A stretch of DNA of 64,000 nt. Origin: Lampris incognitus. Its lineage: Eukaryota > Chordata > Actinopteri > Lampriformes > Lampridae. The stretch is from assembly GCF_029633865.1 (NCBI RefSeq), contig NC_079212.1, positions 99,791,582-99,855,581 of the forward strand. Reading direction: 5' to 3'. This document shows positions 10,994 through 58,836 of this stretch, piece by piece (the stretch's first letter is position 1; every line of letters starts with the position of its first letter). The position numbers and the translations under genes were made by a program. Below the pieces are notes generated by a model that saw nothing but the letters and a program-made list of their open reading frames with translations, was not told the DNA's origin and ran no database searches.

Positions 10994-11053
<60 letters not shown>
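10994..11053. repeat. (AT)n microsatellite at Tc1 insertion site
   Basis: About 30 AT units lie immediately left of the transposon at 11054, and a shorter run (12639-12660) lies on its right. The element has therefore split one AT tract. TA is the obligatory Tc1/mariner target, which explains the choice of site. Confidence 0.95.
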
Positions 11054-11056
<3 letters not shown>

Positions 11057-11215
11057 TACCGTTCAAAAGTTTGGGATCACCCAAACAATTTTGTGTTTTC
11101 CATGAAAATCCACACTTATTCACCACCATATGTTGTGAAATGAATAGAAAATAGAGTCAAGACATTGACAAGGTTAGAAATAATGATTTGTATTTGAAAT
11201 AAGATTTTTTTTACA

Positions 11216-12259
11216 TCAAACTTTGCTTTCGTCAAAGAATCCTCCATTTGCAGCAATTACAGCATTGCAGACCTTTGGCATTCTAGCTGTTAATTTGTTG
11301 AGGTAATCTGGAGAAATTGCACCCCACGCTTCCAGAAGCAGCTCCCACAAGTTGGATTGGTTGGATGGGCACTTCTTGCGTACCATACGGTCAAGCTGCT
11401 CCCACAACAGCTCAATGGGGTTCAGATCTGGTGACTGCGCTGGCCACTCCATTACCGATAGAATACCAGCTGCCTGCTTCTGCTCTAAATAGTTCTTGCA
11501 CAATTTGGAGGTGTGTTTAGGGTCATTGTCCTGTTGTAGGATGAAATTGGCTCCAATCAAGCGCTGTCCACTGGGTATGGCATGGCGTTGCAAAATGGAG
11601 TGATAGCCTTCCTTATTCAGAATCCCTTTTACCCTGTACAAATCTCCCACCTTACCAGCACCAAAGCAACCCCAGACCATCACATTACCTCCACCATGCT
11701 TAACAGATGGCGTCAGGCATTCTTCCATTATCTTTTCATTTGTTCTGCGTCTCACAAACGTTCTTCTTTGTGATCCAAACACCTCAAACTTGGATTCATC
11801 CGTCCACAACACTTTTTTCCAGTCTTCCTCTGTCCAATGTCTGTGTTCTTTTGCCCATCTTAATCTTTTTCTTTTATTGGTCAGTCTCAGATATGGCTTT
11901 TTCTTTGCCACTCTGCCCTGAAGCCCAGAATCCCGCAGCCGCCTCTTCACTGTAGATGTTGACACTGGTGTTTTGCGGGTACTATTTAATGAAGATGCCA
12001 GTTGGGGACCTGTGAGGCGTCTGTTTCTCAAACTAGAGACTCTAATGTACTTATCTTCTTGCTCAGTTGTGCAACGCGGCCTCCCACTTCTTTTTCTACT
12101 CTGGTTAGAGCCTGTTTGTGCTGTCCTCTGAAGGGAGAAGTACACACCGGTATAGGAAATCTTCAATTTCTTAGCAATTTCTCGCATGGAATAGCCTTCA
12201 TTTCTAAGAACAAGAATAGACTGTCGAGTTTCAGATGAAAGTTCTCTTTTTCTGGCCAT
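11216..12259 (-). CDS. Tc1/mariner transposase, DD38E, intact (347 aa)
   Basis: This would be a cut-and-paste transposase that binds the terminal repeats and integrates at TA. The N-terminal helix-turn-helix region spans about residues 1-55 (ETRQSILVLRNEGYSMREI), followed by the GRPR motif at 59-62 and a second DNA-binding segment to about 110. A basic stretch near 116-134 (RVAKKKPYLRLTNKRKRLR) may be a nuclear signal. The catalytic residues are D154 (LWTDESKF), D244 (LQQDNDPKHTS) and E283 (LNPIELLW). Thirty-eight residues separate the second D and the E, the spacing of the DD38E/Intruder family; classic Tc1 elements have 34. There is no stop or frameshift, and the start is the conserved MARKREL also found in the copy at 57381. 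Only about three residues differ from that copy (F41Y, IM/ML at 177-178). Confidence 0.93.
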   Translation of the reverse strand: MARKRELSSETRQSILVLRNEGYSMREIAKKLKISYTGVYFSLQRTAQTGSNQSRKRSGRPRCTTEQEDKYIRVSSLRNRRLTGPQLASSLNSTRKTPVSTSTVKRRLRDSGLQGRVAKKKPYLRLTNKRKRLRWAKEHRHWTEEDWKKVLWTDESKFEVFGSQRRTFVRRRTNEKIMEECLTPSVKHGGGNVMVWGCFGAGKVGDLYRVKGILNKEGYHSILQRHAIPSGQRLIGANFILQQDNDPKHTSKLCKNYLEQKQAAGILSVMEWPAQSPDLNPIELLWEQLDRMVRKKCPSNQSNLWELLLEAWGAISPDYLNKLTARMPKVCNAVIAANGGFFDESKV

Positions 12260-12314
12260 TTTGAGCGTTTAATTGACCCCACAAATGTGATGCTCCAGAA
12301 ACTCAATCTGCTCA

Positions 12315-12638
12315 AAGAAGTGCCCATCCAACCAATCCAACTTGTGGGAGCTGCTTCTGGAAGCGTGGGGTGCAATTTCTCCAGATTACCTCAACAAATT
12401 AACAGCTAGAATGCCAAAGGTCTGCAATGCTGTAATTGCTGCAAATGGAGGATTCTTTGACGAAAGCAAAGTTTGATGTAAAAAAAATCTTATTTCAAAT
12501 ACAAATCATTATTTCTAACCTTGTCAATGTCTTGACTCTATTTTCTATTCATTTCACAACATATGGTGGTGAATAAGTGAGACTTTTCATGGAAAACACA
12601 AAATTGTTTGGGTGATCCCAAACTTTTGAACGGTAGTG
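12315..12638. repeat. inverted duplicate of the element's own 3' end
   Basis: This arm is the reverse complement of 11054-11377, including the C-terminal transposase codons (the segment encodes AWGAISPDYLNKLTARMPK on the plus strand). The junction lies in TCAAAGAAGTGCCC, where the normal 5' leader TCAAAGGAAGG meets 3'-end sequence with a few bases of shared AAG. The same junction occurs twice in the element at 46867-48063. Confidence 0.9.
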
Positions 12639-12661
12639 TATATATATATATATATATATAC

Positions 12662-13540
12662 GTATGGGTACTCTGAGATATATCAGGCTATTTTCACATG
12701 CAGATCGTCAGTGAACTAGAGGAAAGAAAGACATGCTCCATGTGCAGCGCTGCAGTGAAAAGTATTGGATTTTGAGTAGGAAGAGAGAAAGAGAAAGAGG
12801 AGGACAACTGTATTCCGCACTATCACAGCACTGCAGGGCAAATGAGAGCAGTTCTACTGATATATTTTCAGTAAATGGGCACCACACATCTTGAGTGAGG
12901 CGTCATTTCAGCAATGTTAACTGTCAAGATTGAGAAACTATGGGGGACCATGGTTTCCCAAGTAGTCATTGTTATTTCTAAGTTAATTTCTTGAACTGAC
13001 ACACAACACAATTTAGGCGGACTTGAATAGCCTGAGAAGAGGACATGACCCTAATGTCATCAGCGGTAGTTACAACCATAGCTATTGTGATAGTCTTTGT
13101 GGCTGTTTCTCAATATTACCTGTGTTCTCTATGACAAACAAGACAGGATTAGAGAGGTGGATGGAGGTGTCCAAACTTCAACTGATGTGTAACACACATG
13201 TAATGTTTATTAAAGGTACTATCAGTAACATGTTGACTTTATCATAGCAATAAATGAGAATCAGGTATCAGGGGGTGTTGGAAAGAGTTGTAGATCTAAA
13301 CCAAGCGCACGGCTTTGCCGGTTGCTGAGGTTTCTGGGTTAAAACCTATGTTCTAGCCCAGAATCGTTGTTTTGGTAAACAAACCAGTCAGGGGCTCTCC
13401 GGCCTTTACAAAACCTATTTTCTTTCCACACAGGTCACCACACAGTCATCTTGCCATATGATTCAACGAGAAGCAGCCAGCTTTGCAATACAGTTTTAAC
13501 GAACCCAACTCCAGAGAAAACATTGTCCTGATTACAGCCC
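12662..13540. other. unassigned sequence
   Basis: No coding region of note and no repeat I can name. A short open frame at 13023-13247 has no recognisable features. Confidence 0.4.
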
Positions 13541-15495: not shown

Positions 15496-16615
15496 CAGAC
15501 TGGCTCCGCAAATCACCGCTGAGGTGCTGCATCTCCATGATGAGCGGCTCCAGTTCTGCCACACCGGCCCTCGGCTCCTCATGGATTTCACCTGTGGTCA
15601 CACCTGTGTGCATTTGCTTAGCTTTGGTGACCAGACTTCTCCGGCTTAGATGTGTCAATGAAAGTATCTTCTTATTTCATTGAACAGTCATATTGCCTAA
15701 ATTTATGGCTCTCTTGATCACCTCCTTGAAGGTCTCAGGGTCCTTCTCCCAGCATCTGGCCTGCACCTCACAACAGTGGTGTAATGATCTAACGATGAGC
15801 CTTGGACAAAAACTGAAGTGTCTTTTCATTGTCGTCTGGGCTGATGCTGTGGCCATTGCCATAGAGCAAGGCATACTGCCACCATATTTGGGCTTCGGAG
15901 TTGTGGCATGATGTCACATGGTCCAGGAGCTCCTGGAGTTTGGAGTGGTAAGAGGACGCCTGCACCCCATTTGTCTGTCAAGTTCCCCACCACCACTCTC
16001 ACAAGAATCTCCTGAACCTCAACGTCTTTGTACTTTTCCCTGAAGTCCATGAGGCAGTGGTTGGCTTTGATGGCCTCGGTAAAGTCTTCTATGTTGATGC
16101 ACAAGGCAATAAAGTTCTCCCAGATCTGCCAGTGCTCATAGTTACACGTAAGAGCTTCTTGTAGGGTATGGAAGGTTTTGTCTTTCTTTTGAAGGTGAAT
16201 GTAGGCTGTAGAGAGGTTGTTCCACACCTTTGCATTATCTGGCTGTAGTCCCACACACCTCTGGAAGGCCTTTCCAGCGTCTTCATAGCCCTCTAGGGCA
16301 AAGTAGGCACAACCTAGGGAAAACCACACTCCCAGCTGGATGGGGTTGATGTGGAGCGACTGTTTGAAACACGAACGCACTGCTGGCACTCCTTGTTCTG
16401 CAGGTGCAGCAGGGTCTTGGAGTGCATCGTGCAGGTGTTGCGCTGGCCCGACAGCTTCCAGGCCTGGTCATAGTACCGGTGGTCACCCAGGACTTCACAC
16501 AGCAGACAGTACAGACTGGGTGTCTCATTCTTCTCCAAATTTCTACACAGGATCTCCTCGGCCTTGCCATGTTTGCCCACCCTCTCATAGCAGATCACTT
16601 CATCTTCCCACAGTC
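15496..16615 (-). pseudogene. TTC27: processed pseudogene of TTC27, 5'-truncated
   Basis: The minus strand encodes the C-terminal half of tetratricopeptide repeat protein 27 without introns. Starting near 16610 it reads [20 protein letters not shown] and [16 protein letters not shown], then after a frameshift near 16370 the TPR core [33 protein letters not shown] and [16 protein letters not shown] second frameshift near 15965 leads to CWEKDPETFKEVIKRAINLG and the extreme C-terminus, ending in a stop near 15499. Continuity across several expected exon junctions marks it as a retrocopy. Frameshifts and stops show it is not functional. Its 5' end abuts Gypsy pol sequence in the opposite orientation. 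The parent gene is not in this window. Confidence 0.88.
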
Positions 16616-23915: not shown

Positions 23916-25493
23916 CACTGCTCAAAAAAATAAAGGGAACACCTAAAAACACAATATAGACCTCGATGAATGAAATATTTCAGCTGAAAATCTTTATTTA
24001 TTAGACAGAGGAATGTGTTTAGAGCAAAATAACCTAAGAATGATCAATGGAAATCAAAATCATTTGCCCATTAAGGTCTGGATTCAGAATCATACTCAAA
24101 ATCAAAGTGGAAAATGAGAACATAGGCTGATCCAACTTCTGTGGAAATTCTTCAAGACGATTCAAAATGAGGCTCAGTAGTGTGTGTGGCCTCCACGTGC
24201 CTGTATGCACTCCCTACAACGTCTGGGCATGCTCCTGATGAGACGACGGATGGTCTCCTGAGGGATCTCCTCCCAGACCTGGATCCGGGCATCGGTCAAC
24301 TCCTGGACAGTCTGTGGTGCGACATCGCGTTGGCGGATGGTACGAGACATGATGTCCCAGAGGTGCTCGATTGGATTCAGGTCTGGGGAACGTGCAGGCC
24401 AGTCCATAGCATCAATGCCCTCGACATACAGGAACTGCTGACACACTCTGGCCACATGAGGACGAGCATTGTCATGCATGAGCAGGAACCCAGGGCCCAC
24501 TGCACCAGCATATGGTCTGACAATGGGTATGAGGATCTCATCCCGGTACCTAATGGCAGTCATGGTACCTCTGGCTAGCACGTAGAGGTCTGTGCAGCCC
24601 TCCAAGGATATGCCTCCCCAGACCATCACTGACCCACCGCCAAACCGGTCATGCTGGAGGATGTTGCAGGCAGCAGAACGTTCTCCACAGCGTCTCCAGA
24701 CTCTCTCACGTCTGTCACATGTGTTCAGTGTGAACCTGCTCTCATCTGTGAAGAGCACAGGGCGCCAATGGCGAATCTGCCAACCAAGATGTTCTCTGGC
24801 AAAGGTCAATCGGGCTGCACGGTGTTGGGCTGTGAGCACAGGCCCCAATTGTGGACGTCGGGCCCTCATACCATCCTCATGCATTCTGTTTCTCACTGTT
24901 TGAGCAGAAACCTGCACATTAATGGCCTGTTGAAGGTCGTTTTGTAGGGCTCCGGCAGTGCTCCTCCTGTTCCTCCTTGCACAAAGGACCAGATAGCGGT
25001 CCTGCTGCGGGGTTGTTGTCCTCCTGCGGCCCCCTCCACGTCTCCTGGTGTACTGGCCTGTCTCCTGGTACCTCCTCCATGCTCTGGACACTGTGCTGGG
25101 AGACATCAAATCTTCTTGCCACAGCACGCATTGATGTGCCATCCTGGATGAGCTGCACTACCTGAGCAACTTCTGTAGGTTGCAGATACCGCCTCATGCC
25201 ACCTCTAGTGGTGAGGGCACTAGCAAAATGAAAAACTAACCAAAGATCGGCCAGAAAAGATGAGGACAGGCAAATGGTCTGTGGCCACCACCTGCAAATC
25301 CATTCCTGTTATAGGGGTCGTCTTGTAAATTGTCTAATTTCCACCTGGTGGAAATTAGACAATTTGCCAACAGGTGAAATTGATTCACAAATCAGTGTTG
25401 CTTCCTAACTGGACAGGTTGATATCTCAAAAGTGTGATTGACTTGGAGCTACATTTCATTGCTTATGTGTTCCCTTTATTTTTTTGAGCAGTG
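23916..25493 (-). mobile_element. Tc1 (DD34E) element B
   Basis: The terminal repeats are CACTGCTCAAAAAAATAAAG (27 bp matched at both ends), with TA at 23914-23915 and 25494-25495. The element is 1578 bp with a single minus-strand transposase carrying one frameshift. Its right TA is the left TA of the next element at 25496. It inserted just beyond the duplication of the repeat at 23463. Confidence 0.92.
24174..25197 (-). pseudogene. Tc1 DD34E transposase with one frameshift
   Basis: The N-terminal part starts [20 protein letters not shown] (25197). One base is missing in a C-run near 25108, after RFDVS, and the rest continues in another frame as [19 protein letters not shown] through HTHY. 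The catalytic triad is preserved: [16 protein letters not shown] and NPIEHLW, with 34 residues between the second D and the E. The GRRR motif follows the helix-turn-helix. Everything after the frameshift is open (over 300 codons), so the copy is recent but probably inactive. Confidence 0.9.
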
Positions 25494-25495
25494 TA

Positions 25496-27102
25496 CAAAC
25501 CCCAATTCCAATGAAGTTGGGACATTGTGTAAAACGTGAATAAAAACAGAATACAATGATTTGCAAATTCTTTTCGACCTACAATTGAATACACTACAAA
25601 GACAAGATATTTAATTTTCAAACTGATAAACTTTATTGTTTTTTGCAAATATTCACTCATTTCGAATTTGATGCTGGCAACACGTTCCAAAGAAGCTGGG
25701 ACAGGGGCAACAAAAGACTGGGAAAGTTGAGGAATGCTCAAAAAACACCTGTTTGGAACATTCCACAGGTGAACAGGTTAACTGGAAACAGGTGAGTGTC
25801 ATGATTGGGTATAAAAGGAGCATCCCCGAAAGGCTCAGTCCTTCACAAGCAAGGATGGAGTGAGGGTCACCACTTTGTGAACAACTGCATGAGCAAATAG
25901 TCCAACAGTTTAAGAACAACGTTTCTCAACACACAATTGCAAGGAATTTGGGGATTTCATCATCTACAGTCCATAATATCATCAAAAGATTCAGAGAATC
26001 CGGAGAAATCTATGCACGTAAGCGGCAAGGCCGAAAACCAACATTGAGTGCCCGTGACCTTCGACCCCTCAGGCGGCACTGCATTAAAAACCGACATCAT
26101 TCTGTAAAGGATATTACCACGTGGGCTCAGGAACACTTGGAAAAACCATCGTCAGCTAACACAGTTCGTCGCTACATCTACAAGTGCAAGTTAAAACTCT
26201 ACCATGCAAAGTGAAAGCCATATATCAACTACACCCAGAAACGCCGCCGGCGTCTCTGGGCCCGAGCTCATCTGAGATGGACTGACGCACAATGGAAAAG
26301 TGTGCTGTGGTCTGACAAGTCCACATTTCAGATTGTTTTTGGAAATCATGGACGTCGAGTCCTCCGGGCTAAAGAGGAAGAGGACCATTCAGATTGTTAT
26401 CAGCGCAAAGTTCAAAAGCCAGCATCTGTGGTGGTATGGGGGTGTGTTAGTGCCCATGGCATCATGGGTAACTTGCACATCTGTGAAGGCACCATTAATG
26501 CTGAAAGGTACATACAGGTTTTGGAGCAACATATGCTGCCATCCAAGCGACGTCTTTTTCAGGGACGTCCCTGCTTATTTCAGCAAGACAATGCCAAGCC
26601 ACATTCTGCACGTGTTACAACAGCGTGGCTTCATAGTAAAAGAGGGCAGGTACTAGACTGGCCTGCCTGCAGTCCAGACCTGTCTCCCATTGAAAATGTG
26701 TGCCGCATCATGAAGCGCAAAATACGACAACCGAGACCCTGGACTGTTGAGCAACTTAAGTCGTACATCAAGCAAGAATGGGAAAGGATTCCACCTACAA
26801 AGCTTCAACAATTAGTGTCCTCAGTTCCCAAACGCTTATTGAGTGTTGTTAAAAGGAAAGGTGATGTAACACAGTGGTAAACATGCCCCTGTCCCAGCTT
26901 TTTTGGAACGTGTTGCAGGCATCAAATTCAAAATGAGGGAATATTTGCAAAAAAACAACAAAGTTTATCAGTTTGAACATTAAATATATTATTGTTGTAG
27001 TGAATTCAATTGAATATATGTCGAAAAGGATTTGCAAATCATTGTATTCTGTTTCTATTTACATTTTACACAACGTCCCAACTTCATTGGAATTGGGGTT
27101 TG
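25496..27102 (+). mobile_element. Tc1-like (DD34E) element C with long terminal inverted repeats
   Basis: The ends CAAACCCCAATTCCAATGAA and its complement at 27083-27102 are the tips of an inverted repeat that extends for roughly 200 bp on each side. TA flanks at 25494-25495 and 27103-27104. The element is 1607 bp with one plus-strand transposase. It begins exactly at the TA that ends element B, so one of the two inserted at the target duplication of the other. Confidence 0.92.
25870..26880 (+). pseudogene. Tc1-like DD34E transposase with one internal stop
   Basis: The frame runs from LHEQIVQQFKNNVSQHTIAR (about 25885) through a helix-turn-helix (LGISSSTVHNIIKRF) and ARKRQGRKPTL. A TGA at 26212-26214 follows KLYHAK. 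The frame resumes with [19 protein letters not shown] and stays open to DVTQW (26880). The triad is [19 protein letters not shown] and LSPIENV, with 34 intervening residues. The residue after the first D is K where E is usual. The likely start codon region near 25855 also contains a stop, so the N-terminus is uncertain. Confidence 0.85.
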
Positions 27103-27104
27103 TA

Positions 27105-29435: not shown

Positions 29436-32400
29436 TCACCAGTTCCATACAATCTCCCCCCTCCTGTTGAGGGAGAGGAGATGGCTGTCTCTGATGAAGA
29501 GCCGGGTGAAGTCCGCATCGCCGTGCGTCAATCTGTAATGCGTTTGTTTTTTGACCATGTTTTTGAAAATGTTCCAAACCGGGATGATTCTGCGTTCAAA
29601 GTGCGCAATGTTCCGACGTGATTTGACGGCCCACCGGGCGTGACTTAAGAGGAATTTGCACAGCGCTGTGTTCTTCACCCTGCTCTTCTCCCACACTCCA
29701 AACACAAAAAATACATCCCACGAATCCCCATTGTCCCAAATTAATCCCAGTTTGTTGACTAAGCACTTTTTCAGGGTTTCAAAGAAGCTCGCCAGCTCCG
29801 AGCAGTGCCCGTACATGTGCAATAATGTTTCAGGCAGCAGGCCACAGACGTCACACTCCCTGCCGACCCCCTTGTTAAACTGGTGCAGAATAACGTTTGT
29901 GAACACTTTGTTGTGTCGAATTTTGTAGTCGTTGTCTTCTGCCTCAATGCTGTTCCCTCTCACCCTCCATTATCCCCAGATTTGTCCCACATTCAAATTG
30001 GGCATAACTTTGCCCCAGAACGGCAGAGAGGTCGGACGTTGCGACGCCTGTGCCAGAAACTTTTCATAGATCTGTTTGCTTGTCAACCTGTGTATACTCC
30101 TCCACTCTCCTCCTTGCTCAACCAACACGGCTGGGAGCTTCCCCTCTCTGTTCTGTACTACTCTCCGCTCTATGGTTGTCAGCCATTCTTTTGGGATGCT
30201 TTCCTTTAAATCATTGTAATAGCTTGTTGTCTCTGTAATTTTGGCCTTATGGTTTATCTCCTTTATACTATCATATATGGTTTGGGGGGGAAGAAAACCC
30301 GGCATCAGTTTATACATGACGTCCTTCAACTGGACCAAACCTGCTCTTAACATATTATTATTACACAGAAGCTTACCTGTCTTTTGAATTTTCTTATTTA
30401 GAAAAATTGGCATTTCTCTGATAACGTTTACCGAGTCACATGCATAGTCTATATGCTTTAGAAATTCCGCGTGAGCGGACAGGACTTCTCTGTAGAAATC
30501 TGGAAGCCCCACCATCATCGGTCTCTTTAGTTGCATCAACAGCACAAAATCGCCTATGTGAAATGCCTTGTTTATGAAGTATGCCATCAGGCTTTTCCAG
30601 CCGTGGGCTGTGGAGTCACACAGATATTTTTTTATGGTTTTGATCCTGAACGCCCTTTTTTTGCTTTCTATATCTACTAATTGAAGTCCTCCCTCTCTGT
30701 ACTTACTTATTAATGTCTTTCGTGCTATTTTACTTACTTTTGCCCTCCACAAGAAATTGGTTATGATTTCATTTAGTCTATTTAATACCCATAAGGGTAG
30801 TTCTATAACTGCTAATGCATAGTTTAGTTTTGACAATATTAAGTTGTTTAGAACCACTACTTTACCTTTGAGTTTAAGGTCTCTCAGTTTCCAATAATTT
30901 AGACATTTTTCTATTTTATTAATAATTTCCGTCCATGACAGATCATGAGCTGCCACTACATCTTTACCGATGTAGGTGCCTAGAATTTTTATATGCTTGC
31001 TTTGTATTTTAAAAGGTGTGGTCTCCTGCTGAGGTTCAGCCATGTTAATAAACATGATGTCTGACTTACCTACATTTATGCGGGAGCCAGAGGCTCGACC
31101 GTACATGTTTATAACTGCGATTGCTCTCTCTATGCTTACCATGTCCTTTACTGTTAGGGTCGTGTCATCAGCAAATTGCTGGACGACACAGGATCCTCCC
31201 CCTGGTAACTCAATACCACTAATACCCTTGTCTTTTTTTAATATAATTCCTAGTGGCTCTGCTATTATTGTGTACAGGATTGAGGATAGTGGACAGCCTT
31301 GTCTGACCGACCTTTCCAGAGGAAACGCATCAGTGGTTGCACCGTTGCATTTGACCTTACCTGTAGCGTTGCTATATAACAATTTTACCCAAGTTAAAAA
31401 TCTGTCTCCAAAACCTACCTTTTTCAGTACATTAAACATAAATTGATGCTCTACTCGGTCAAAGGCTTTATTGAAGTCAATGACCAGAAGGACACCTGCT
31501 TGATCTGTCTCCTTTAAATACTCCACCACATCTCTTATCGTGCGTACTGTGTCAGTGACTTCTCTCCCTGGCACACTATAAACCTGGGTGGGTTCTATTA
31601 TTGTGTGTCATATTTGTTTGACTCTGTTTGCGAATATTTTCATTAGTATTTTGTAATCATTGTTCAACAGAGTAATGGGCCTATAATTTGTTATTTCATC
31701 CTTCTTCCCTTTCTTAAAAATTAAAGTGATCAAGAGAGTCATTGACTCCGGTACCTTCTGTTCTTTTTCCATTGTTTTATACAATTTCAGTAGTATTGGT
31801 TTGAGCGTGTTGCAGAAAGCTTTATAGAAGTTTGCCATCAACCCATCACTACCTGGGCTTTTATTTGACATCATTTGATTTATTGCACACTCTATATCTT
31901 TCTCAGTTATTTCCTGTTCACACGCTGATTTATCCTCATCATTTAGTTTAGCTGTCATCTCTTCCAATATGTCATTTGTAGCTTGTATGTCTGAACTCTC
32001 AGTTTTGAACAAGTCACTGTAAAAAGTTTGTACTGTTTCCAAAATGTCTACGAAATTGGTCACTACTTTACCTTCTTTATTTTTGATTTCTTGCAAATAA
32101 CACTGATGTTGTTTTCTTTTTTCCAAGTTGAGGAAAAAAGCTGTACTTTTCTCCCCTTCTACTGCATATTGAGCACGGCTCCTCACTATAGCACCTTCAC
32201 ATTTTATCCTTTCAATTTCATTTATTTCATTTTGAATATTCACAAGCCTTTCAACATTGACAACCGGTTGTGCATTTAATTTAGCAATTGTATTTCTTAA
32301 TGATCTTTCTTTTTCTCTAGTTTTAAAGTTCAATCTTTTCGCAAACTGAATACTTTTTTGTTTAATTCTCACCTTTAATTTCTCCCACCCCGCTATGATA

Positions 32401-33220
32401 TTTTCCCCAAACTCAGGCTGTGCACATTCAAATGAGATCAATTTAGAGATACAGTCAACATAATCCCTTCTGTTCAGCAGACTAGCATTAAGGTGCCACA
32501 CGCCTCCCCTCTCCCCCTCCTTTTACCCCCCATTCCCACACGCAGGATGGCATGATCACTAATAAAATTTAAACAATAGCGCACAGTATCGAAAAGGTCG
32601 ATCTGCGGTTTCCTGACTAAACAAAAATCTATCCGACTTTGCCGTACAGTGTCCATTTGTGGCTGTACTCTCGAGTACTCTCGTGTTATGGGATTTCTGG
32701 TTCTCCATAAATCACAGAAATTATTCTTGGCCATAAACAGATTCAGGGCCGCTCTTGAACAGTGGTGTTTATAGCTACCGTTATCGCTAATGTCAAGCCT
32801 GCTCATCTTGACATTGAAATCCCCAACTATGATGTCACAGTCTTTAGCTATAATATTCAATTCTCGAAAGAAAGAAGACCTGTCCCCCTCGTGGTTGGGC
32901 GCATAAATGTTCAGTAATTTGCAGACAGTGTCTTCAAAAACAAAGCCCACTTTAACCCACCTCCCCCCAATGTCTTTGTCTATTAGAGTGGCATCGGCCT
33001 TAATTTGGCTACTCACCATGATGCTTACTCCTCGTGCCCGCTGAGTCCCATGGCTTGAAAAGTAGAATCCAGGCCACCTTTTCTTGCACTGAGTTTCACA
33101 GTCAGTGTCCCAGTGGGTTTCTTGAAGACAGATTATTTCTGCATCACACATTTTTTCGACTTTAGTGAACTTGTCCATGTCACGTAGTCCACGTACGTTG
33201 AATGATGCTATTTTGACCAT
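29436..33220 (-). pseudogene. Tx1-L1 ORF2 (APE endonuclease, reverse transcriptase)
   Basis: The frame starts MVKIASFNVRGLRD (33220), with endonuclease blocks EIICLQETHWD, NIYAPN, VGDFNV and SDHAIL. One frameshift occurs near 32505-32525 in a purine run. The RT region then gives NKSPGSDGLMANFYK, NYRPITLLN, a TGA at 31608-31610, VIDFNKAFDRVEHQF, RQGCPLSSILY and QQFADDTTL. It continues to a Cys-rich C-terminal part (ECDVCGLLPETLLHMYGHC) interrupted by one TAA at 29970-29972. One frameshift and two stops are all that separate it from an open frame, so it is disabled but little decayed. F-A-D-D replaces the more common YADD in the catalytic box, which is normal in this clade. Confidence 0.92.
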
Positions 33221-33291
33221 GGTGAGTGGGAAAGACAGAGAAAAATAATCCCCAAACAAAAAACATGATGCATACCCTTTTCAGTCCATTA

Positions 33292-34774: not shown

Positions 34775-36078
34775 GTAGTCGCATTGGTGACTTAATAGCG
34801 GAAGAAGATGAAGAGGAACATGAGGGAGATAGGTGTGTTGTTACTGTCAGTACAATACAATTTTTCCAACATGTAGATTACTGCATTGTATAATATGTAT
34901 ATATATATTCACTAATCTTTCAATAGTGGATAGCTCTGTTCTGACTCATCATCTTGATAACAGGAAAATGTGTGGAATTATATTGCTTCCCACATGTATG
35001 ACATATCCTCATGTGTCCAGTGAGGTTTGGGCGACTCTACCTGATCATGACTACGACGTGAAGCCCCTTTCTGTGGAAGACCAGCTTGACGCAGTAAAGA
35101 AACGCATCGCTTTCCTGGAGGACGAAAAAAAAAAGCTGAAAAGTGAGCGTTTTGGTCTAGAACGCTTCCAGTGTGCGCCCAATCTGATCAGGTTTTATAC
35201 TGGTTTTAAGGATTACTACACCCTCAAAGCACTCTTCCTAGCTTTACAGCCTACTGCAGAGTCCATGGTGCAATGGACTCAAATGCAAAGGAACAGCCAA
35301 AACCTAGAACACATTTCTGTGTCTGGCTTCCATGCAGAGCATTTATCGCTGATTGATCAGTTTTTCCTGTTCTTGTGCCATGTGAGGCAGGGCTTTTTTG
35401 CTCTGGATTTATCTGTACGATTCAATTTGTCGCCGGCCACAGTCAGCAATAACTGTACGACGCAGGCCAACTATTTGCTCTTTATGTTAGGGACCCTCCC
35501 AATATGGCCTAGTAGAGCAGCAGTAGACGAGCTAATGCCACCAGTATTCAGGGAATTCTACCCAAACACAAAAGTGATACTAGACTGCACAGAGATCCGC
35601 AACGAGACAGCTAGTTCAAAGGTTTTGAACACCATGACATACTCCCATTATAAAAGTAACACTACACTGAAATCCCTAATTGGGATCACTCCCTCAGGGT
35701 CAGTTAGCCTGGTAAGTAATCTATACGCAGGATGTATTTCTGATAAGGAGATAACTAAGAGGTCAGGTGTTCTGGACCTCTTAGAGTCAGATGATGAGGT
35801 CATGGCCGATAAGGGCTTCCTTATCAAAGACCTGCTCGATGAAATAGATGTAAAACTTGTCATCCCTGCATTTTTAGGCCCAAGTGAACAGTTTAGCTGT
35901 GATGAGCTCAGACACACAGAGTATTGCTGGCTTGAGAATACACGTCGAACGGTCAATAAGACGCATAAAGGAGTACCACATTTTTGATGGGGTCATACCC
36001 CTTTCACTAAGTGGAACAGTCAACCAACTGTGGACTGTGTGTGCTCTCCTAACACATTTTCAGGGACCACTGTTTTAA
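34775..36078 (+). pseudogene. DDE_Tnp_4-type transposase, frameshifted
   Basis: The large exon follows a spliced-looking leader. Small putative exons end at AGATAG|GTGTGT (34830) and start after CTTTCAATAG (34925). The conserved part starts near 35020 (WATLPDHDYDVKPLSVEDQL), then a predicted coiled-coil-like LDAVKKRIAFLEDEKKKLKS. A helix-turn-helix segment follows (FFALDLSVRFNLSPATVSNN). The nuclease core has VILDCTEI (first D), MADKGFLI (second D), and [12 protein letters not shown] (E). A one-frame shift near 35905-35930 separates the last block. The protein cuts and pastes TIR-bounded DNA in the nucleus. With the frameshift and the incomplete THAP domain this copy is probably inactive. Confidence 0.82.
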
Positions 36079-38567: not shown

Positions 38568-38885
38568 GGAGGGCAGTCAGGGAACCGCCGCAGCCAGGAC
38601 GCGATCCCGGCTCTCCCGCACCCCGGCGACAACGTTACCCACTCGACTAAAGGGTCTTACCCGTTAACCAAGGGCTACCGAGCCTATTCATTACATTACC
38701 CACTTCCTTCGGGATTCACACGCCTCCAGTCCCAACGGTCACTGATGAATAGGCTCAGTAGCCCTTGGTTAACGGGTTGGACTCTTCAGTCCACTGGTTA
38801 ATGTTGTCGCCCACGGTGCGGGCAATTCGAGTTCGCGTCCCGGCTGTGACGGACCGGCTGGATTGCCCCCTGAATTCGCTGCAGT
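38568..38885. repeat. foldback of two inverted tRNA-like repeat copies
   Basis: The left arm (38568-38700, minus orientation) and right arm (38740-38885, plus orientation) are inverted copies of the repeat also seen at 28838. Shared blocks are GTTAACCAAGGGCTACYGAG, ACTCGACTAAAGGG and the outer TGTAGCGTATTCC/GGAATTCGCTGCA-like ends. The arms align at roughly 75% by eye over about 140 bp. The unique centre is about 40-70 bp. Confidence 0.7.
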
Positions 38886-45493: not shown

Positions 45494-46603
45494 CACTCAC
45501 CGGCCACTTTATTAGGCACACCCGTCCAACTGCTCGTTAACGCAAATTTCTAATCAGCCAATCACATGGCAGCAACTCAATGCATTTAAGCATGTAGACA
45601 TGGTCAAGACAATCTGCTGCAGTTCAAACCGAGCATCAGAATGGGGAAGAAAGATGATTCAAGTGACTTTGAACGTGGCATGGTTGTTGGTGCCAGATGG
45701 GCTGGTCTGAGTATTTCACAAACTGCTGATCTACTGGGATTTTCACGCACAACCATCTCTAGGGTTGATAGAAAGGCAACAGTAACTCAAATAACCACTC
45801 ATTACAACCGAGGTATGCAGAAGAGCATCTCTGAACGCACAACACGTCGAACCTTGAGGCAGATGGGCTACAGCAGCAGAAGACCACACCGGGTGCCACT
45901 CCTGTCAGCTAAGAACAGGAAACTGAGGCTACGATTCGCACAGGCTCACCAAAATTGGACAATAGAAGATTGGAAAAACGTTGCCTGGTCTGATGAGTCT
46001 CGATTTCTGCTGCGACATTCGGATTGTAGGGTCAGAATTTGGCGTCAAGCAACATGAAAGCATGGATCCATCCTGCCTTGTATCAACGGTTCAGGCTGGT
46101 GGTGGTGGTGTAATGGTGTGGGGGATATTTTCTTGGCACACTTTGGGCCCCTTAGTACCAATTAAGCATCGTGTCAATGCCACAGCCTACCTGAATATTG
46201 TTGCTGACCATGTCCATCCCTTTATGACCACAGTGTTCCCATCTTCTGATGGCTACTTCCAGCAGGATAACGCGCCATGTCATAAAGCTCGAATCATCTC
46301 AGACTGGTTTCTTGAACATGACAATGAGTTCACTGTACTCAAATGGCCTCCAAAGTCACCAGATCTCAATCCAATAGAGCACCTTTGGGATGTGGTGGAC
46401 CGGGAGATTCGCATCATGGATGTGCAGCCGACAAATCTGCAGCAACTGCGTGATGCTATCATGTCAATATGGACCAAACTCTCTGAGGAATGTTTCCAGT
46501 ACCTTGTTGAATCTATGCCACGAAGGATTAAGGCAGTTCTGAAGGCAAAAGGGGGTCCAACCCGGTACTAGCAAGGTGTACCTAATAAAGTGGCCAGTGA
46601 GTG
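45494..46603 (+). mobile_element. Tc1/mariner DD36E (Incomer-type) element, internally deleted
   Basis: The ends CACTCACCGGCCACTTTATT and its complement near 46584-46603 are flanked by TA (45492-45493 and 46604-46605). The element is 1110 bp, short for the family because part of the transposase linker is missing. It sits inside the coding part of the BED/hAT-like gene, which it interrupts cleanly. Confidence 0.9.
45641..46571 (+). pseudogene. DD36E Tc1-family transposase, deleted and frameshifted
   Basis: The start MGKKDDSSDFERGMVVGARW begins a helix-turn-helix region. After ISRV about 35-40 residues of the usual linker are missing, and the frame continues DRKATVTQITTHYNRGMQKS and [10 protein letters not shown] (first D). 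A frameshift follows near 46055. The rest has VMVWGIFSWH, YFQQDNAPCHKARI (second D) and [10 protein letters not shown] (E), with 36 residues between the second D and the E. That spacing is the DD36E/Incomer signature. The end is KAKGGPTRY. Confidence 0.88.
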
Positions 46604-46866
46604 TATATGTGGATATGGTGCGGAATGATGACCTACCAGTTCCTAAAGTTAAGTCTTTTGAGGCAGTGAAGAACAGTTCCAAGGATCCTCTGTTCATCCC
46701 AAAAGTGATGATCTTCAACAGCATCGCAAGAGAAATTTATTTAGGGTGAGCTTTATTACTTATGTTTATATTTGCTGTGAAACTGTTTACAATTTATTTC
46801 ACACTATTGAGTGACACATTCCATCTCTAGTTCTTGGGAGAATTGTTTTATTTCATTTTAGATATA

Positions 46867-48063
46867 CACTACCGTTCAAAAGTTTGGGATCACCCAAACA
46901 ATTTTGTGTTTTCCATGAAAAGTCACATTTATTCACCACCATATGTTGTGAAATGAATAGAAAATAGAGTCAAGACATTGACAAGGTTAGAAATAATGAT
47001 TTGTATTTGAAATAAGATTTTTTTTACATCAAACTTTGCTTTCGTCAAAGAATCCTCCATTTGCAGCAATTACAGCATTGCAGACCTTTGGCATTCTAGC
47101 TGTTAATTTGTTGAGGTAATCTGGAGAAATTGCACCCCACGCTTCCAGAAGCAGCTCCCACAAGTTGGATTGGTTGGATGGGCACTTCTTTGAGCAGATT
47201 GAGTTTCTGGAGCATCACATTTGTGGGGTCAATTAAACGCTCAAAATGGCCAGAAAAAGAGAACTTTCATCTGAAACTCGACAGTCTATTCTTGTTCTTA
47301 GAAATGAAGGCTATTCCATGCGAGAAATTGCTAAGAAATTGAAGATTTCCTACACCGGTGTGTACTACTCCCTTCAGAGGACAGCACAAACAGGCTCTAA
47401 CCAGAGTAGAAAAAGAAGTGGGAGGCCGCGTTGCACAACTGAGCAAGAAGATAAGTACATTAGAGTCTCTAGTTTGAGAAACAGACGCCTCACAGGTCCC
47501 CAACTGGCATCTTCATTAAATAGTACCTGTTAGAGCCTGTTTGTGCTGTCCCCTGAAGGGAGTAGTACACACCGGTGTAGGAAATCTTCAATTTCTTAGC
47601 AATTTCTCGCATGGAATAGCCTTCATTTCTAAGAACAAGAATAGACTGTCGAGTTTCAGATGAAAGTTCTCTTTTTCTGGCCATTTTGAGCGTTTAATTG
47701 ACCCCACAAATGTGATGCTCCAGAAACTCAATCTGCTCAAAGAAGTGCCCATCCAACCAATCCAACTTGTGGGAGCTGCTTCTGGAAGCGTGGGGTGCAA
47801 TTTCTCCAGATTACCTCAACAAATTAACAGCTAGAATGCCAAAGGTCTGCAATGCTGTAATTGCTGCAAATGGAGGATTCTTTGACGAAAGCAAAGTTTG
47901 ATGTAAAAAAAATCTTATTTCAAATACAAATCATTATTTCTAACCTTATCAATGTCTTGACTCTATTTTCTATTCATTTCACAACATATGGTGGTGAATA
48001 AATGTGACTTTTCATGGAAAACACGAAATTGTTTGGGTGATCCCAAACTTTTGAACGGTAGTG
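46867..48063. mobile_element. palindromic derivative of the DD38E element
   Basis: TA flanks it (46865-46866 and 48064-48065) and both tips are CACTACCGTTCAAAAGTTTG. The left arm 46867-47401 and right arm 47529-48063 are inverted copies of about 535 bp with few differences. The loop is about 127 bp. Each arm contains the element's 3' end, the chimeric junction TCAAAGAAGTGCCC-type, and then the first part of the transposase (plus strand from 47246, minus strand from 47684). No complete transposase remains. The arms equal the right end of copy 1 at 11054-12638. It would need transposase in trans. Confidence 0.92.
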
Positions 48064-48299
48064 TAAGTATTATGTATTTATTTTGTTAAAAGTTAATACA
48101 AGGAAATGCACTGCAAATAGAGAGGCACCACATGTTTGAAATGCAGACCTAATTTTACTTGGTGCTACAATAAATAATTTTCAGTGAACAATGAAGTAAT
48201 TTCTTGGTCGTGGAAACTCAGTTAAAGGTTGTGGAGAAGTCATGGAAAAGTCATTGAAAATCATTGGTGAAAGAGTGTATGAACCCTGATATTATGCCA

Positions 48300-57218: not shown

Positions 57219-58836
57219 CACTACCGTTCAAAAGTTTGGGATCACCCAAACAATTTTGTGTTTTCCATGAAAAGTCACACTTATTCACCACCATATGTTG
57301 TGAAATGAATAGAAAATAGAGTCAAGACATTGACAAGGTTAGAAATAATGATTTGTATTTGAAATAAGATTTTTTTTACATCAAACTTTGCTTTCGTCAA
57401 AGAATCCTCCATTTGCAGCAATTACAGCATTGCAGACCTTTGGCATTCTAGCTGTTAATTTGTTGAGGTAATCTGGGGAAATTGCACCCCACGCTTCCAG
57501 AAGCAGCTCCCACAAGTTGGATTGGTTGGATGGGCACTTCTTGCGTACCATACGGTCAAGCTGCTCCCACAACAGCTCAATGGGGTTCAGATCTGGTGAC
57601 TGCGCTGGCCACTCCATTACCGATAGAATACCAGCTGCCTGCTTCTGCTCTAAATAGTTCTTGCACAATTTGGAGGTGTGTTTAGGGTCATTGTCCTGTT
57701 GTAGGATGAAATTGGCTCCAATCAAGCGCTGTCCACTGGGTATGGCATGGCGTTGCAAAATGGAGTGATAGCCTTCCTTATTCAGAATCCCTTTTACCCT
57801 GTACAAATCTCCCACCTTACCAGCACCAAAGCAACCCCAGACCATCACATTACCTCCACCATGCTTAACAGATGGCGTCAGGCATTCTTCCAGCATCTTT
57901 TCATTTGTTCTGCGTCTCACAAACGTTCTTCTTTGTGATCCAAACACCTCAAACTTGGATTCATCCGTCCACAACACTTTTTTCCAGTCTTCCTCTGTCC
58001 AATGTCTGTGTTCTTTTGCCCATCTTAATCTTTTTCTTTTATTGGTCAGTCTCAGATATGGCTTTTTCTTTGCCACTCTGCCCTGAAGCCCAGAATCCCG
58101 CAGCCGCCTCTTCACTGTAGATGTTGACACTGGTGTTTTGCGGGTACTATTTAATGAAGATGCCAGTTGGGGACCTGTGAGGCGTCTGTTTCTCAAACTA
58201 GAGACTCTAATGTACTTATCTTCTTGCTCAGTTGTGCAACGCGGCCTCCCACTTCTTTTTCTACTCTGGTTAGAGCCTGTTTGTGCTGTCCTCTGAAGGG
58301 AGTAGTACACACCGGTGTAGGAAATCTTCAATTTCTTAGCAATTTCTCGCATGGAATAGCCTTCATTTCTAAGAACAAGAATAGACTGTCGAGTTTCAGA
58401 TGAAAGTTCTCTTTTTCTGGCCATTTTGAGCGTTTAATTGACCCCACAAATGTGATGCTCCAGAAACTCAATCTGCTCAAAGGAAGGTCAGTTTTGTAGC
58501 TTCTGTAACGAGCTAAACTGTTTTCAGATGTGTGAACATGATTGCACAAGGGTTTTCTAATCATCAATTAGCCTTCTGAGCCAATGAGCAAACACATTGT
58601 ACCATTAGAACACTGGAGTGATAGTTGCTTGAAATGGGCCTCTATACACCTATGTAGATATTGCACCAAAAACCAGACATTTGCAGCTAGAATAGTCATT
58701 TACCACATTAGCAATGTATAGAGTGTATTTCTTTAAAGTTAAGACTAGTTTAAAGTTATCTTCATTGAAAAGTACAGTGCTTTTCCTTCAAAAATATGGA
58801 CATTTCAATGTGATCCCAAACTTTTGAACGGTAGTG
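57219..58836 (-). mobile_element. Tc1/mariner DD38E (Intruder-type) element, copy 2, canonical ends
   Basis: The tips are CACTACCGTTCAAAAGTTTG at 57219 and its complement at the right end (58836), with TA on both sides (57217-57218 and 58837-58838). The 1618-bp length is normal for the family. Unlike copy 1, the 5' side has its own leader (GGAAGGTCAGTTTTGTAGC, about 58482-58500, onward to 58836). It carries an intact transposase and inserted into the dispersed repeat at 57049. Confidence 0.95.
57381..58424 (-). CDS. Tc1/mariner transposase, DD38E, intact (347 aa)
   Basis: This transposase has the same length and start (MARKRELSSETRQSIL) as the copy at 11216. It keeps the N-terminal paired-type DNA-binding region, GRPR at 59-62, and the triad D154, D244, E283 with 38 residues between the last two. 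Y41 and ML at 177-178 replace F41 and IM of copy 1; Y41 is also seen in the palindromic copy, so it is probably ancestral. No disabling change is visible. With canonical terminal repeats this is the best candidate for an active copy in the window. Activity itself cannot be judged from sequence. Confidence 0.94.
   Translation of the reverse strand: MARKRELSSETRQSILVLRNEGYSMREIAKKLKISYTGVYYSLQRTAQTGSNQSRKRSGRPRCTTEQEDKYIRVSSLRNRRLTGPQLASSLNSTRKTPVSTSTVKRRLRDSGLQGRVAKKKPYLRLTNKRKRLRWAKEHRHWTEEDWKKVLWTDESKFEVFGSQRRTFVRRRTNEKMLEECLTPSVKHGGGNVMVWGCFGAGKVGDLYRVKGILNKEGYHSILQRHAIPSGQRLIGANFILQQDNDPKHTSKLCKNYLEQKQAAGILSVMEWPAQSPDLNPIELLWEQLDRMVRKKCPSNQSNLWELLLEAWGAISPDYLNKLTARMPKVCNAVIAANGGFFDESKV

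Follow-up and report, generated by a model that had tools for sequence, protein, structure and literature searches.

A fold-back derivative of an Intruder-type (DD38E) transposon, probably formed by two rounds of interrupted gap repair

The hairpin at positions 46867–48063 of the window (the whole 64-kb stretch of DNA analysed here) is a fold-back, MITE-like derivative, whose ends are identical to those of an autonomous parent and which contains no complete transposase. It is probably a non-autonomous form of an Intruder-type (DD38E) element that arose in two steps, both of them interrupted gap repair in which the copying strand crossed over to the element's opposite end. Its anatomy, both of its junctions, the order of the two steps and its sister relation to a full-length element, copy 1, can be read from the sequence. 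Together with a second full-length element, copy 2, the hairpin and copy 1 suggest within a single window how short inverted ends probably became long matching ones and how a fold-back then arose, and the junctions of these steps can be read.

Anatomy of the hairpin and its parent element

The hairpin, to which no strand is assigned, measures 1197 bp and has TA at each side (GATATA/element/TAAGTA). The left arm (46867–47401, plus strand) corresponds to positions 1–535 of a chimeric element, and the right arm (47529–48063, minus strand) to the same positions in inverted orientation. The two 535-bp arms are identical at 532 positions and differ at arm positions 39, 116 and 512, where the right arm carries 39C, 116T and 512G. 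With the flanking TA included, they span 46865–47401 and 47529–48065 (537 nt each, 99% complementary). The loop between them (47402–47528, plus strand; 127 nt) comprises chimera positions 536–661, from the transposase coding sequence, and one base. A first-pass annotation of this DNA had described arms of about 535 bp, a 127-bp loop and TA on both sides, all of which we confirm. The hairpin is the longest inverted-repeat pair in the window (among the best 25 of 88 pairs that are 40 nt or longer and whose arms lie no more than 4 kb apart). A smaller, second fold-back is observed at 38625–38811, with 67-nt arms that are 87% complementary and a 53-nt spacer.

Each arm begins with 324 bp derived from the 3′ end of the element, followed by the 5′ leader and the start of the transposase gene. 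At each of its ends the hairpin carries a copy of the element's 3′ end, as the first-pass annotation had noted. The 3′-end copy meets the leader in a 3-bp overlap (CTT) at 47188–47190 (plus strand) in the left arm and at its counterpart, 47740–47742 (minus strand), in the right arm; the earlier claim that both arms carry the junction of copy 1 is thus correct. At the hairpin junction (47527–47529, plus strand), chimera position 661 is joined to inverted position 535 with one extra T. Both full elements read C then G at this base, and a C-to-T change at the CpG combined with a 1-bp overlap is an equally valid reading.

The longest transposase frames in the hairpin encode 95 and 64 amino acids, in agreement with the annotated lack of a complete transposase, but each arm retains a transposase start that the annotation had missed. 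The 95-aa N-terminal frame (47246–47533, plus strand) contains a helix-turn-helix and reaches its stop codon at the hairpin junction, whereas the 64-aa frame (47684–47490, minus strand) contains the first helix-turn-helix and a short foreign tail. They match HTH_38 at 31.0 and 30.8 bits, respectively (cut-off 27).

A substitution present in both hairpin arms, 62T, converts AATAAG to AATAAA on both outward strands (47997–48002, plus; 46928–46933, minus). The hexamer lies at position 1131 of 1197, and copies 1 and 2 read AATAAG there. RNA entering the hairpin from either side would reach this polyadenylation-type hexamer after nearly the whole fold-back.

Copy 1 is a chimeric element of 1585 bp (11054–12638, minus strand) with inverted ends of 324 bp (321/324 identical), and copy 2 an unrearranged element of 1618 bp (57219–58836, minus strand) with inverted ends of 27 bp. 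The 27-bp terminus is perfect at all six ends of the hairpin, copy 1 and copy 2. Each copy has a complete 347-aa transposase frame (11216–12259 and 57381–58424, both on the minus strand); the two proteins differ at 3 residues, and outside the replaced end the elements match at 1257 of 1264 positions. The transposase carries the catalytic residues D154, D244 and E283 and a GRPR motif at residue 59, and its domains HTH_Tnp_Tc3_2 and DDE_3 score above the cut-off. The DD38E label given earlier holds, since 38 residues separate D244 and E283 in the copy 2 transposase. Both copies fall within the size ranges of Intruder elements (1.5–1.7 kb; transposase of 341–379 aa), and TA is found on both sides of the hairpin and of copy 2. 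On the features tested, not on a tree, we assign the parent to the Intruder-type (DD38E) Tc1/mariner elements. Copy 1 lies within a TA microsatellite (11027–12665), which makes its TA target duplication uninformative.

A protein search with the transposase gave 5219 matches among 6572 candidates, the best of the 120 listed being a cluster of 213 sequences that is 99% identical. The best named relatives among the matches listed belong to Serrasalmus rhombeus (95% over 97%), other fishes and one nematode record. We take this DNA to come probably from a ray-finned fish. The nematode record (P0005), whose entry names the horse nematode Cylicocyclus nassatus, is 89% identical to the transposase and would reflect contamination or horizontal transfer. 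A search for direct repeats of the IR/DR kind revealed no second transposase-binding repeat inside either end; the best internal matches were 12/18 at the 5′ end, which 40 of 200 shuffles attained, and 11/18 at the 3′ end, which 123 of 200 attained.

Three Tc1-type transposase frames of other lineages lie at 24174–25142 (minus), 26302–26880 (plus) and 45981–46571 (plus), and the hairpin starts about 295 bp past the last of these. Three long inverted-repeat blocks (88, 71 and 63 nt; 25494–27104) flank the frame at 26302–26880, suggesting another Tc1-like element with long inverted ends. Also found in the window are a LINE-type reverse transcriptase and endonuclease region (29970–33259, minus), a DDE_Tnp_4 transposase frame (34833–35987, plus) and a frame with tetratricopeptide repeats (15826–16389, minus), which we take to resemble the host gene TTC27.

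Order of the rearrangements and kinship of the copies

In copy 2, the two ends are unrelated once the terminal 27 bp are passed, and its 5′ region (58483–58809, minus strand) is lacking in copy 1 and in each arm of the hairpin. Copy 1 carries in its place, at the 5′ end, the 3′ end in inverted orientation, and the copied tract takes in 162 bp of transposase coding sequence, from codon 295 through the stop. Because the copied tract carries coding sequence, this end of copy 1 is derived. The leaders of outside relatives agree with copy 2 as the unrearranged form. Three proteins (P0241–P0243) have leaders that match the 5′ region of copy 2 in the same frame with scores of 38, 57 and 57, each reached by none of 300 shuffled peptides, whereas against the leader of copy 1 their scores of 21, 22 and 22 are reached by 240, 264 and 248 of 300 shuffles. 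From these sequences we read copy 2 as the original, short-ended form and copy 1 as derived. The chimera consists of the inverted 3′ end (positions 1–324) and the normal element (322–1585), overlapping by 3 bp; the hairpin consists of chimera positions 1–661, one extra T and inverted positions 535–1.

Diagnostic substitutions, numbered here in chimera coordinates, place the hairpin and copy 1 side by side. The chimeric end of copy 1 alone carries 59T, 487T and 501T, and its 3′ end alone 56T and 57C. The substitution 62T occurs in both hairpin arms, and neither end of copy 1 nor the 3′ end of copy 2 carries it. The three differences 39C, 116T and 512G are private to the right arm, the left arm has no private change, and 259G is found only in copy 2. 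With private substitutions on each side, the hairpin and copy 1 are sisters, neither descended from the other. Both very probably descend from one chimera with the same CTT junction, which arose once; an independent second origin of an identical junction is possible in principle and unlikely.

The shared junction and the different flanks indicate that the chimera reached at least two sites. The common junction, the differing flanks and the private substitutions together bear out the first-pass claim of a single origin followed by spread. The accompanying claim that the rearranged form was mobile does not extend to the hairpin's own movement; the chimera, the hairpin or both may have moved. The hairpin could have formed in place, and its intact termini and TA flanks say nothing on this point. 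Every end of an element of this kind is bordered by a 2-bp TA, and the same ends would result if a resident chimera had been repaired faultily or if a deletion had brought two facing insertions together.

Gap repair, rival readings and possible roles

We infer gap repair from the structure of the product. The first step would have started from an ordinary element whose inverted ends measured 27 bp: its 5′ end would have been replaced by 324 bp copied in inverted orientation from the 3′ end, and the chimera represented by copy 1 would have resulted. In the second, the left 661 bp of a sister chimera would have been joined to an inverted copy of its own first 535 bp, with the remainder deleted. 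After excision, each broken flank would copy inwards from a template, one copying strand may switch between the two ends of the element through their identical terminal sequence, and the two repair tracts would then be joined at little or no homology (3 bp in the first step, 0–1 bp in the second). Two meeting tracts, one of which has jumped through the identical tips, would explain both steps alike. The presence of 62T on both arms implies either that copying of the right arm began very close to the tip or that both ends of the parent already had this substitution. Counted against gap repair is that neither a donor nor an intermediate nor an empty site was seen, and that one hairpin and one chimera are known, both from this window.

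Traces of the junctions outside the window were sought in protein and contig collections. With a 75-aa frame spanning the chimera junction, 3 proteins matched among 4 candidates, and none of the 3 carries a chimeric leader in this blunt search. For the 95-aa hairpin-junction frame, 326 proteins matched among 343 candidates, the best of the 120 listed being 97% identical. Two of the matching sequences were inspected; a hairpin-junction protein was not found in this database, which is clustered at 90% and could hide one, and the best listed match is a truncated transposase of 154 aa whose sequence continues beyond the junction. Three scans of a viral contig collection found nothing, which says little as this collection holds no fish genomes. 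In a collection of genome contigs, likewise not of fishes, 9 stretches fit the pattern and none encodes a relative, and phage records, again not fish genomes, gave no match.

An unlikely alternative is that two oppositely oriented chimeras inserted near each other and that a deletion removed their inner parts and the intervening DNA, leaving the outer 661 and 535 bp. The product would be identical, a blunt or 1-bp join is compatible with deletion, and the TA flanks cannot separate this reading from gap repair because TA borders any insertion. However, two members of the same 62T-bearing subline must then have inserted near each other, and a deletion must in addition have ended inside both elements.

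The hairpin has no known function of its own. With two intact 27-bp ends, it is probably a substrate that the transposase of copy 1 or copy 2, or a similar enzyme, could mobilise in trans. In Intruder donor plasmids, replacing the 5′ repeat by a consensus derived from the 3′ repeat improved transposition in HeLa cells, with more colonies, and the two natural repeats differ by only 2.4% (PMC7731502). This result fits a mobile chimera, although indirectly given so small a difference. The 95-aa and 64-aa fragments may possibly compete with the transposase as DNA binders, and roles of the hairpin in titration or as a source of small RNA are speculative.

That the hairpin is a spreading non-autonomous element, which titrates transposase and, on read-through from a nearby promoter, silences its family by long duplex RNA, extends the view of the first-pass annotation and is a reading we hold to be quite improbable. 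Its intact ends and the DNA-binding transposase fragment that each arm could encode are in its favour. Transcription of the hairpin would yield RNA with a very long duplex, as the first-pass annotation had anticipated: one strand as RNA has a predicted minimum free energy of −1022.8 kcal/mol, an extremely stable fold in silico, with no shuffle control at this length. Moreover, fold-back read-through RNA of Tc1 feeds RNA interference in C. elegans (PMC3878927), and palindromic Made1 elements give rise to human mir-548 (PMC1784062). Against this, the window holds a single copy, the long ends of copy 1 would give a 324-bp duplex anyway, and the piRNAs that suppress transposons in the zebrafish germline need no hairpin (PMC3878927).

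A broader proposal, which we consider distinctly doubtful, is that end-over-end copying is a general route from short-ended Tc1-like elements to identical long ends. Chimeras with two 3′-type ends would enjoy a transposition advantage, and a second round would regularly yield fold-backs that spread with the family and damp it through duplex RNA or DNA-binding fragments, in a boom-and-brake cycle.

Snap-back replication, in which a nascent strand folds back and copies its own arm, would account for the inverted arms and the loop. Such copying should continue into an inverted left flank, and none is found: the right flank matches the inverted left flank with a score of 11, against a shuffled mean of 12.9, and 180 of 200 shuffles score as high. 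The flank fits a switch at the ends and disfavours simple snap-back, which is very improbable unless the switch fell at the very tip. Self-insertion of an excised element, known for Sleeping Beauty (PMC3952818), produces internal rearrangements in Tc1-like elements, but it would join a tip to an internal TA; both junction sequences lack a tip, which leaves self-insertion scarcely credible. Long palindromes are error-prone in assembly, yet an assembly artefact is extremely improbable given the three differences between the arms, the unlike flanks and ends that fall exactly at TA.

Comparison with known systems

Intruder (DD38E/IT) elements have a DD38E transposase of 347 aa, a length of 1.5–1.7 kb, a GRPR motif and a TA target (PMC7731502), and copies 1 and 2 share the triad, the protein length, the size range, GRPR and TA. 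Intruder inverted ends are known in short (<100 bp) and long (100–272 bp) forms (PMC7731502). In contrast, those of copy 1 extend over 324 bp and reach into the coding region. The hairpin differs further as a fold-back with its middle deleted, a form absent from the parts of PMC7731502 compared. The TA microsatellite around copy 1 recalls the Intruder copies of the cat assembly, which are mostly flanked by TA repeats and were judged to be contamination (PMC7731502).

Made1, the source of mir-548, is likewise a palindromic non-autonomous derivative of a mariner-type element and gives a hairpin RNA upon read-through. It is 80 bp long with 37-bp arms and without a long copied coding stretch, whereas the hairpin measures 1197 bp with 535-bp arms (PMC1784062). 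In C. elegans, the inverted ends of one Tc1 transcript also pair into a duplex; silencing was demonstrated there, whereas the present hairpin is known from sequence alone (PMC3878927).

Products of abortive gap repair have been described for Ds (Rubin and Levy 1997, as cited in PMC4877112) and for P-element MITEs, whose internal deletions are explained by post-excision repair (PMC1562414). They share with the hairpin internal deletions and intact ends. In the hairpin, however, one tract was taken from the opposite end and inverted. Among titles and abstracts, we recognised no Tc1-like fold-back carrying an end-swapped chimera, a weak negative as subscription literature lay largely outside the search.

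Copy 1 finds its closest parallel in Bari1 of D. rhopaloa, which has two identical long inverted ends (PMC4877112). Like the elements described here, Bari is Tc1-like, occurs in forms with 28-nt ends and with identical ends of about 250 nt, and retains a complete transposase (PMC4877112). The mechanism behind its identical long ends was "still to be identified" in 2016 (PMC4877112), and this window offers a worked example of a short-to-long step. The question can be counted in any genome by recording where inverted ends overlap transposase coding sequence and what their junctions look like. For Bari, a decay from long to short ends was proposed (PMC4877112); the step in this window runs in the opposite direction, from short to long, and its junction is visible.
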